This document shows, one piece after another, positions 8,694 through 56,000 of a stretch of 64,000 nt of DNA. The notes below the pieces were generated by a model. It did not search any database. It saw nothing but the letters and a program-made list of their open reading frames with translations, and was not told the origin of the DNA. The first letter of the stretch is position 1. The number at the start of each line of letters is the position of its first letter. The DNA comes from Collinsella sp. zg1085 (GTDB lineage: Bacteria; Actinomycetota; Coriobacteriia; Coriobacteriales; Coriobacteriaceae): positions 186,001 through 250,000 of the forward strand of contig NZ_CP076545.1 of assembly GCF_018889955.1 (NCBI RefSeq), read 5' to 3'. The translations under genes and the position numbers were made by a program.

Positions 8694-8701
8694 AATAGCT
8701 C

Positions 8702-8832
8702 CGTTTCTTCCGTCCGGACTGTACCGTCGGCTCCGGACTGTACCGGATCGGCCTTCTCTGGCTTGCGGGCTTCTGTATCAGTTTGTTGATACAGCTACCG
8801 CCGGTGGGGAATTGCACCCCGTCTTGAAACAT
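8702..8832 (-). promoter_or_regulatory. FMN riboswitch (RFN element)
   Basis: The minus strand contains the conserved RFN blocks in order: GGGGTGCAATTCCCCACCGG, then CGGTAGC, AGCCCGCAAGCC, GATCCGGTACAGTCCGGAGC, CGACGGTACAGTCCGGACG and GAAG. This is the family-wide order of the six-helix FMN aptamer. Its 3' end falls within 10 nt of the ribU start, with no space for a separate terminator, so control is probably by sequestering the ribosome binding site. FMN binding would shut off riboflavin uptake. Confidence 0.95.
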
Positions 8833-8840
8833 ACATCTAC

Positions 8841-49503: not shown

Positions 49504-49562
49504 TTGTTTTGCTCAAGATATGTATAAAGCCTGAATTGGTGTTTTCTGTGCTATCTTTCAAT

Positions 49563-49616
49563 AAAGAAGGGGTTTCCCCGCCGACCCGTTTAGCGGGGGG
49601 GTCTAACCCCTCTTTT
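49563..49616. repeat. Two-level palindromic structure of unknown role
   Basis: An outer stem pairs AAAGAAGGGGTT with AACCCCTCTTTT (one-nt bulge). An inner stem pairs CCCCGC with GCGGGG around the loop CGACCCGTTTA. It lies about 60 bp after the ppx terminator at the left edge of an accessory pocket and is unusually GC-rich in an AT-rich surround. It could be a structured RNA, terminator or remnant element. Confidence 0.55.
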
Positions 49617-49755
49617 ATTCTGAATAAGTATTCCTTTTTAATATTATTGCTTACTTGAATTGGGTTTTTCAACGTAGTGCAAGCTAACGTATTTAGAAAA
49701 AGAGGGCAGCGCAAAATCTTGTGCTCAACCTGTTTATTTTTCGTTTTCTTTAGGG

Positions 49756-49845
49756 TACAATGGCATCGACGGCAGCCCACGTTCGTCATAGCTGGGCAGC
49801 GTCGTTGTTTGAGTAAGACCGCCGCGCTAACGGCGGTTTTTCTTT
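49756..49845 (+). ncRNA. Putative antitoxin small RNA (antisense to the 41-aa peptide gene)
   Basis: A -10 TACAAT at 49756-49761 would start a transcript near 49768. The RNA has a first stem-loop pairing CGACGGCAGCCCA with TGGGCAGCGTCG. It ends in an intrinsic terminator, ACCGCCG-CGCTAA-CGGCGGT followed by TTTTTC (49818-49842). The terminator lies across the last codons of the convergent peptide gene, so the two transcripts are complementary at their 3' ends, and fully so if the peptide mRNA reads through. The layout matches type I antitoxins such as RatA/SR4. The assignment as RNA is inferred, not shown. Confidence 0.55.
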
Positions 49846-49952
49846 ACTTTACAACGGGACTGACCCCGCGCTTTGGTATGAAGTTTCATCAAAGCTGCTG
49901 CTAGTCCAACTAACGCTGTAGCTAGCTTGAGCAATTCAATCAATAACTCCAT
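49827..49952 (-). CDS. Putative type I toxin: 41-aa hydrophobic peptide with basic tail
   Basis: The minus strand encodes a 41-residue peptide: MELLIELLKLATALVGLAAA begins it, then LMKLHTKARG and a basic end with KVKKNRR. One amphipathic/hydrophobic helix is followed by a positive tail, as in Fst/Ldr/TxpA-type membrane toxins. The ribosome binding site AGGAGGTGAT is a full anti-16S match, eight nt before the ATG. The stop codon lies inside the terminator stem of the convergent small RNA. A -10-like TACAAT at 50036-50041 would give a leader of about 75 nt containing GCTGGGCAGCG, a word also present in the small RNA. No known family is claimed. Confidence 0.6.
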   Translation of the reverse strand: MELLIELLKLATALVGLAAALMKLHTKARGQSRCKVKKNRR

Positions 49953-50230
49953 GAGCATCACCTCCTCTCTAAAGAGTAGGCGCTGCCCAGCACGTGGTTA
50001 CCTACTTAAAGGTTGCTGCGTCTTTGCCGTTAATTATTGTAGCTCAAACCATAGTTGAAACCTCGGTATTTACTCCCTCAATTTATATAACTACTTCTTA
50101 TCAATCTGGGTATCTTAAGCATGAGGAGCATGTAGTGCTTGAGCTGGAATAACTTATTGTTTACTACTTCAATTGCCCTTATCTATTGGCATAATATTTA
50201 CGAGCTTATACACGATGAAAGGAACTAGTC

Positions 50231-50416
50231 ATGCCAACCTCAGACGCGCAAAAACGTGCAACTAACAATTACAGAAAAAAGAATATAAGGAACTATAATC
50301 TTTCGTTGTCTCCCGTTGATGCTGACCTTATTCAATGGCTCGACGCTCAAGACAATAAGCAAGGTTATCTCAAGCGATTAGTTCGTGAGGATATGGAGCG
50401 CAAGAAAAGAGACTAG
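50231..50416 (+). CDS. Small mobile-element-type protein (RHH-like)
   Basis: A 61-residue basic protein beginning MPTSDAQKRATNNYRKKNIR and containing DADLIQWLDAQDNKQGYLKRLV. This pattern is widespread in phage and conjugative-element genes of Firmicutes and Actinobacteria and is predicted to be ribbon-helix-helix-like; the DNKQGYIKxLIRxDM ending is characteristic. AAAGGA lies before the ATG. It suggests that the pocket between ppx and tRNA-Leu is a remnant of an integrated element. Function is not known. Confidence 0.65.
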   Translation: MPTSDAQKRATNNYRKKNIRNYNLSLSPVDADLIQWLDAQDNKQGYLKRLVREDMERKKRD

Positions 50417-50440
50417 AGCGCCTAGCATGGTCAATCTAAT

Positions 50441-50478
50441 AAGAGCGGACACGAGTGTGCAAACTCCTGCCCGCTCTT
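50441..50478 (+). terminator. Inverted repeat after the RHH-like gene
   Basis: AAGAGCGG and CCGCTCTT form a perfect 8-bp stem around a 22-nt loop, followed by GCACGTTTT. It is plausibly a weak terminator. Confidence 0.5.
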
Positions 50479-50566
50479 GCACGTTTTAGGTACTTGATGT
50501 TACTCCGTATCCATATTAAGTTTGTCCGCTGCGTCTTCACAATGCTCAAGAGCGTAATATTTCTCC

Positions 50567-50725
50567 TTAAAATGGAATATCTTCGTCATAGACGTTTACA
50601 GGTACTGCTTGCTTGAACGCTTGGTTGACCACGTTTTGCATAGGCGCGTGCCAAATCTGTGCCACAAAATGTGCCCACAAATTATAATGCCTGATAAAAG
50701 ATGGTAAAGCTTTTAGGAAATTCAT
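50567..50725 (-). pseudogene. SSB-like C-terminal remnant
   Basis: A 52-codon minus-strand frame ends ...VPVNVYDEDIPF. The acidic DEDIPF ending is the protein-interaction tail of single-stranded DNA-binding proteins. A different frame of the same DNA reads GTDLARAYAKRGQPSV, which is reminiscent of the SSB core (G..AE..AKY..KG). I infer a decayed ssb-like gene of a mobile element with internal frame damage. There is no ribosome binding site at the ATG. The attribution rests mainly on six residues and is uncertain. Confidence 0.35.
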
Positions 50726-55405: not shown

Positions 55406-55428
55406 ACAAGCAACAGGAGGTGGCTAAG

Positions 55429-55719
55429 TTGGCTAAAACAGCAAATATCAATCTCAGGATCGAACCTCAGGTCAAACGGGATGCTGAGGCGATTTTTGAA
55501 AGCTTTGGGATTTCGGTTACTGATGCGATTAACATCTTTTTGCATCAGTCCATCATGGAGCAGGGTTTTCCGTTTGCGATTCAGCGTCCCAGATATAACG
55601 CAGAAACCGAAGCAGCTCTGCAAGAAGCACGCGATATTCTTTCAGGAAAGATTCCAGCCAAGTCGTATGGTTCAGCCAGAGAGCTCTTTGCTGACTTGGA
55701 TCTGGAAGCTGAAGAATAA
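55429..55719 (+). CDS. dinJ: RelB/DinJ-family antitoxin
   Basis: A 96-residue ribbon-helix-helix antitoxin. Its DNA-binding segment is NINLRIEPQVKRDAEAIFES, followed by SVTDAINIFLHQSI, the canonical DinJ pattern, and then the GFPF(A)I toxin-binding region. The C-terminal part is acidic, ending DLDLEAEE. The TTG start has AGGAGG eight bases upstream; a GTG three codons earlier is too close to the SD. It is followed by the YafQ toxin after 2 nt and likely autoregulates from the strong promoter upstream. Confidence 0.9.
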   Translation: MAKTANINLRIEPQVKRDAEAIFESFGISVTDAINIFLHQSIMEQGFPFAIQRPRYNAETEAALQEARDILSGKIPAKSYGSARELFADLDLEAEE

Positions 55720-55721
55720 TC

Positions 55722-56000
55722 ATGTTAGAGCTTCGCGCGACATCCAAGTTTCGCAAGGACTATAAGCGCATCGAGAAACGCGGCTATAATTTGGCTTTGC
55801 TTGAAGCGGTTCTGGAAAAGCTTCTCAACCAAGAACCGTTAGAAGCAAGGTATAAAGACCATGCCCTCACCGGCTCCTACGCAGGCTTTAGAGAATGTCA
55901 TATCCAGCCTGACTGGCTTTTTATCTATGCGGTCGAAAAAGACCAGCTCATTCTTGTTGCTGCCGGCACAGGCACACATGCCGATTTATTCAACATGTAA
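55722..56000 (+). CDS. yafQ: YafQ-family mRNA interferase toxin
   Basis: A 92-residue RelE-superfamily endoribonuclease that cuts mRNA at the ribosome. The catalytic set visible in YafQ proteins is present: KDHALTGSYAGFRECHIQPD, DWLFIYAVEKDQLIL, and the terminal GTGTHADLFNM, giving the His/Asp residues used for catalysis. It begins 2 nt after the antitoxin stop and relies on coupling. All key residues are intact, so the system is presumably active. Confidence 0.92.
   Translation: MLELRATSKFRKDYKRIEKRGYNLALLEAVLEKLLNQEPLEARYKDHALTGSYAGFRECHIQPDWLFIYAVEKDQLILVAAGTGTHADLFNM

Follow-up and report, generated by a model that had tools for sequence, protein, structure and literature searches.

What is the 286-bp unit that occupies positions 49756-50041 of the window (the whole 64-kb stretch of DNA analysed here), and do its small features mean anything? 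The initial annotation had read it as a coriobacterial type I toxin-antitoxin module that lacks annotation. The features go beyond chance, since the genome contains the unit four times and every component is kept in diverged relatives. Homologues with the same architecture, coding constraint on the peptide frame, covariation in the small RNA (sRNA) and co-occurrence of both parts support the proposal, and the sequence evidence makes this very likely a new type I toxin-antitoxin family, previously unnamed, to which we would give a probability of about 0.82.

Layout of the unit and a proposed mechanism

The coordinates of the features are collected in Table 1. A 41-codon minus-strand frame with a Shine-Dalgarno (SD) sequence, a hydrophobic helix and a basic tail had been described, as had a plus-strand −10 box, stem-loop and intrinsic terminator, and all of them are found where they had been placed. 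The frame translates as MELLIELLKLATALVGLAAALMKLHTKARGQSRCKVKKNRR*, with a top 19-residue hydropathy of 2.08 and a tail charge of +8. Within the SD, GGAGGTGA is kept by nearly all homologues. One detail has to be corrected: the toxin stop codon had been assigned to the terminator stem, but 49827-49829 form the loop of the terminator (ACCGCCG-CGCTAA-CGGCGGT plus a T-run at 49818-49845, +). The fold of 49766-49845 (+) has z = -3.9. The −35 boxes of the window module are weak; TANNAT-like boxes lie ~70-90 nt 5′ of the toxin ATG in most relatives. A good terminator 3′ of the stop codon was looked for on the toxin (minus) strand and none was found.

Table 1. Positions in the window of the module parts and of the prophage remnant around them, with the loci that carry a solitary sRNA
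Feature	Position or locus	Strand	Remarks
Toxin peptide frame, putative	49827..49952	-	41 aa, stop included; one hydrophobic helix and basic tail
Shine-Dalgarno AGGAGGTGAT	49957..49966	-	Upstream of ATG at 49952
Toxin leader hairpin	49953..49988	-	GGGCAGCGCCU arm and AGGUGAUGCUC; SD sequestered
Word W, GCTGGGCAGCG, leader copy	49981..49991	-	
Toxin promoter −10, putative, TACAAT	50036..50041	-	Kept in 4/4 genomic copies
sRNA promoter −10, putative, TACAAT	49756..49761	+	
Antitoxin sRNA, putative	49768..49845	+	About 75-78 nt; ends inferred
sRNA hairpin CGACGGC-A-GCCCA...UGGGC-AGC-GUCGUUG	49767..49807 (approx.)	+	Covariation, 52 distinct sequences
Word W, copy in sRNA 3′ arm	49791..49801	+	Candidate anti-RBS segment
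sRNA intrinsic terminator	49815..49845	+	Covers final 19 nt of toxin frame
Prophage remnant bearing the window module	49513..50648	.	Five collinear blastn pieces, 82-96%, vs copy 3 prophage
Solitary sRNA loci	L155, L156, L158, L162, L169, L172, L174, L175, L178, L180, L183, L191, L192		Toxin start deleted

We propose that the minus-strand mRNA would encode a 41-aa single-helix membrane peptide, which may harm the membrane if produced in excess. The SD of this mRNA would be held in the leader hairpin, the 5′ arm of which is the word W (GGGCAGCGCC). The convergent plus-strand sRNA (~77 nt) would be the antitoxin, a true antisense over the 3′ coding end of the toxin mRNA, and the W in the 3′ arm of its own hairpin may pair in trans with the ribosome binding site (RBS; GGUGAUGCCC/GGUGAUGCUC). 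Binding would then involve two sites, the 3′ overlap joining the RNAs and W clamping the RBS, with a translation block and/or cleavage of the duplex by an RNase III-like enzyme as the expected outcome. The sequence itself displays the peptide, the SD hairpin, the promoter, hairpin and terminator of the sRNA, W in both RNAs, the co-occurrence of the parts and their mobility; transcription of the unit, toxicity of the peptide, pairing in vivo and a role in keeping mobile elements are what we infer from it.

Conservation of the sRNA and predicted pairing of the word W

Homology and covariance searches brought up relatives in other Coriobacteriia: the peptide in 60 of 298 genomes (20/125 genera; 18/100 in a sample of relatives) and matches to the sRNA covariance model in 79 of 298 (27/125 genera), the families with the module being Coriobacteriaceae, Eggerthellaceae-like and Atopobiaceae-like. 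Diverged peptides are often 40-50% identical, with a minimum of 24% in the peptide alignment. All six peptide matches of a phylum-wide sample fell within the window genome's own order. A DNA pattern built on the leader only was found at 13 places among 84,980 species, 12 of them in Coriobacteriia, with Adlercreutzia, Slackia, Anaerotardibacter, Olsenella and Aphodovivens represented; the sRNA is present at 12/12 of the leader-pattern loci in named Coriobacteriia. The thirteenth place is a probable chance match. L114, a hit on a viral contig, has neither sRNA nor peptide and was rejected as a chance match. The leader-only pattern and the sRNA-only model each recovered the same peptide-sRNA pair.

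On the opposite strand and just past the toxin stop, all modules carry a −10 box and a hairpin, followed by a terminator that extends back across the 3′ end of the toxin. This −10 box matches TATAAT at five or more of six positions in 45 of 59 distinct modules, where shuffles expect 4.1. In the 52 distinct hairpins 86% of cells are paired, and compensatory changes fall mostly at two hairpin pairs (CG 29/UA 22; GC 21/AU 16/GU 4). The covariation score of 0.214 exceeds that of every shuffle (0.155; 0/500) and of the slid controls, which reach no more than 0.081. In the own genome, the covariance model finds exactly the four toxin copies, with a fifth match at E = 3.4. The sRNA accompanies 90 of the 91 loci found via the peptide or the leader, L114 being the exception, and sRNA-first loci without a peptide match revealed more than 20 new hydrophobic peptides behind the same leader. 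Among Rfam covariance models, RNAI included, the top score was 16.9 bits against a gathering value of 47; the sRNAs of ten related loci matched no Rfam RNA family, and Collinsella-1 (RF01700) was rejected as the identity of the sRNA. Elsewhere in the window, an FMN riboswitch (Rfam RF00050) is found at 8698-8835 (-).

The initial annotation had also pointed to a word shared by the sRNA and the toxin leader. This emphasis was justified; what changes is the meaning of the word, from antisense target to shared anti-SD arm. W has only two exact occurrences in the 64-kb window. The copies lie on opposite strands, and both RNAs therefore read W in one and the same sense; W is thus not itself an antisense match, and we rejected it as a direct antisense word. 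As the 5′ arm of the leader hairpin it pairs with the RBS side in 64/64 modules, and at least 60% of the SD is paired in 60/64 leaders. Since the second W, in the sRNA, has the same sense as this arm, it could pair with the RBS in trans. The simplest reading would be that both copies of W have the RBS as partner, the leader copy in cis and the sRNA copy in trans.

Comparison among modules makes such a trans anti-SD mechanism likely. The W 10-mers of leader and sRNA are identical in 19 of 54 modules; the mean W distance between sRNA and leader is 1.22 within the own module and 2.25 across other modules (p = 6e-5; relatedness not removed), and variants such as GGGCAGAGCC, GGGCCGCGCC, GGGCGACGCC and GGGTCGCGCC change together in both places. 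Paired with the RBS, the sRNA arm gives duplexes that average -15.4 kcal/mol vs. -12.5 for shuffled targets. With relatedness left in, cognate combinations exceed non-cognate ones both for this pairing (p = 0.008) and for the cis leader hairpin (p = 0.003). The trans covariation of W with the RBS is of modest size, and other constraints also keep the RBS conserved.

These comparisons bear on an alternative that accepts the module and would have the antitoxin act through the 3′ overlap only, by RNase III cleavage or conformational change, the sRNA copy of W being a mere part of a stable hairpin that arose by inverted duplication of the leader. It would account for an overlap that is universal in the modules, for an sRNA W that is occupied within its own hairpin and for the alikeness of the mRNA and sRNA 5′ ends, and it has a precedent in txpA/RatA, which lacks RBS complementarity (PMC4147584). 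It does not predict that W should covary between leader and sRNA, nor that W should pair better with its cognate RBS than with others, and we regard it as unlikely, with a real share of the probability.

Besides the trans pairing of W with the RBS, two further contacts were considered. Pairing of the sRNA 5′ arm with the leader W is possible, and its effect on the RBS would be opposite. Pairing of the sRNA with the mRNA 5′ end through an ACGGC motif was rejected: the complementarity is conserved, but cognate pairs are not preferred (+0.33 kcal/mol, p = 0.15). In Eggerthellaceae-like and Atopobiaceae-like loci the toxin leader opens with a conserved motif, (C/G)ACGG-N-GTAAGTCCCG, which resembles the sRNA 5′ arm.

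The toxin promoters of some relatives have features of their own. LexA-like boxes scoring 8-9/10 occur in 12 of 71 toxin promoters vs. 1 of 71 in the control, mostly in one Collinsella clade. LexA-like boxes (CGAACATATATTCG, CGAACAAATGTTTG) are situated ~90-110 nt 5′ of the toxin ATG at L011, L045, L046, L048, L050, L060, L061, L072 and L065, and resemble the boxes that precede lexA and recA in the same genomes. SOS induction of the toxin is possible in some clades, judging from these boxes. For the window copy, SOS control is not supported, its box being weak (7/10, p = 0.16).

The peptide, its genomic copies and decayed loci

The 62 distinct peptides of the family have a median length of 41 aa, and 95% of them reach a 19-residue hydropathy of at least 1.6. 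The helix keeps the pattern K/R-L-x-T-A-L-x-x-L-x-x-A while the tail is variable. Conservation of the frame in relatives, which the initial annotation had made a test of its proposal, is borne out by a pN/pS of about 0.46 in the helix region over ten clades, and by this measure the helix is under moderate purifying selection; among the four own-genome copies, with few changes, the ratio is about 1. No Pfam, NCBIfam or PHROG family covers the peptide (32 members in the Pfam/NCBIfam scan), in agreement with the earlier view that it has no known family. The PHROG comparison returned weak holin matches at E about 0.1.

The four copies of the peptide in the 1.72-Mb genome each lie within a ~280-bp unit that is kept between its two −10 boxes, share 88-95% DNA identity and occupy unrelated sites. 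Copy 3 is inside a prophage where Pfam identifies a portal protein, small terminase, HNH, SSB and integrase; a terminase large subunit is proposed there from gene position alone. Copies 2 and 4 are near a tRNA-Ser and between two large surface-protein genes. The remnant that bears the window module is shrunken, is flanked by a gppA-like gene and a tRNA-Leu, and retains, besides the module itself, a 61-aa gene and an SSB tail. In Collinsella aerofaciens, circular plasmids with ParA bear the module, the peptide being annotated as “hypothetical protein”. Peptide clades in common point to Collinsella as the genus of the window genome. A DNA search of plasmids returned Collinsella records and two chance matches, and a DNA search of phages gave no match to the module. 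Presence in a prophage and on plasmids suggests that the module may help to keep mobile elements.

Other arrangements were noticed on the way. Tandem modules a few hundred bases apart are seen at L007/L062 (G018 C12) and L076/L088/L090 (G183 C33). Contigs break inside toxin 3′ ends with a common end, TATGAGAAAGCCATTG, at L059/L189 and L188, where an insertion sequence probably targets the terminator region. Within the window, positions 55420-56000 likely contain a type II module, in which a RelB/DinJ-like antitoxin precedes a YafQ/RelE-like toxin, judged by inspection of the sequence.

At least 12 loci have decayed, keeping the sRNA, the terminator and often the last toxin codons and losing the toxin leader and start. 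None of the peptide-first loci lacks the sRNA. Antitoxin-only loci with no toxin-only counterpart are as toxin-antitoxin logic predicts, and lend indirect support to a peptide that would inhibit growth and an RNA that would relieve it; part of the asymmetry is ascertainment, because an sRNA-only locus is detected more readily than a truncated peptide.

It is reasonable to ask whether the peptide could instead be a useful small membrane protein, for holin-like lysis, transporter regulation or signalling, that an antisense sRNA tunes. The prophage location and the weak PHROG holin matches would fit, and holins and type I toxins are similar in appearance. Such a role is harder to reconcile with copies outside phages, on plasmids and beside unrelated genes, with multi-copy and tandem modules, with decay to antitoxin-only loci and with a peptide whose tail and sequence are highly variable while the RNA control is not; we consider it improbable. 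That the four near-identical 280-bp copies are repeats of a selfish or structural DNA element in which the frame arose by accident is hardly credible, given the coding constraint, an SD and start conserved across divergent genera, and no sign of terminal repeats or target-site logic.

Relation to known type I systems

Two marks of type I systems are found in the predicted module, a small (<60 aa) hydrophobic helical peptide and an antisense RNA with promoter and terminator. A 2025 paper restricts known type I systems to three phyla, Proteobacteria, Firmicutes and Tenericutes, apart from the cyanobacterial case that it adds itself (PMC12390103), and the literature that we searched, mostly without subscription journals, holds no report from Coriobacteriia or Actinomycetota. 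The family would add to these phyla Actinomycetota that are common in the human gut (Collinsella, Adlercreutzia, Slackia, Olsenella). The fullest version of our proposal, Actinomycetota's first type I family with an antitoxin that is an inverted copy of the toxin promoter and leader and supplies a trans anti-SD strand, is offered tentatively, at slightly under even odds. The ~100 natural variants with built-in covariation are material for studying how a sequestered RBS is recognised by an antitoxin RNA, and the covariance model is a route to new toxins from the RNA side.

In the known Gram-positive type I systems the RNAs overlap at the 3′ end (PMC4147584), and by our reading the module appears to follow this plan of 3′-overlapping convergent RNAs. 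It shares with par of pAD1 (RNA I/Fst - RNA II) convergent RNAs that meet at the 3′ end, a small membrane peptide, SD control, a plasmid-borne state and repeats near the 5′ ends of both RNAs. In par, the direct repeats DRa/DRb make the two RNAs complementary, and this pairing keeps the ribosome from binding (PMC4147584). In the module the repeat is inverted, so both RNAs have it in the same sense and par-type 5′ complementarity is absent. Neither Fst nor Ldr was among the Pfam matches of the 32 members scanned (E up to 1).

The module resembles txpA/RatA and bsrG/SR4 of B. subtilis in its 3′-overlapping convergent antisense RNA, its hydrophobic peptide and its association with a prophage or skin element, and bsrG also has an RBS hairpin. 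Reportedly, txpA/RatA works by RNase III cleavage and bsrG/SR4 by conformational change. The overlap of the module is short in comparison, covering ~19 nt of coding sequence in the window copy, or more if the toxin mRNA continues further, and its sRNA has an RBS-complementary segment additional to what is found in txpA/RatA; Pfam and NCBIfam gave no TxpA/BsrG family match for the 32 members at E up to 1. The TisB_toxin Pfam model is weakly resembled by the helix of 6 of 32 members (best E 0.077), which is at most suggestive, and the LexA-like boxes at some module toxin promoters, none of them convincing at the window copy, may also recall tisB/IstR-1 of E. coli. IstR-1 pairs at a standby site, without 3′ overlap. 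MsoT1/MsoA1 of Microcystis, from a different phylum and likened by description rather than by sequence, is comparable as a candidate type I system beyond the classical phyla, with its antitoxin over the toxin 3′ end (PMC12390103).
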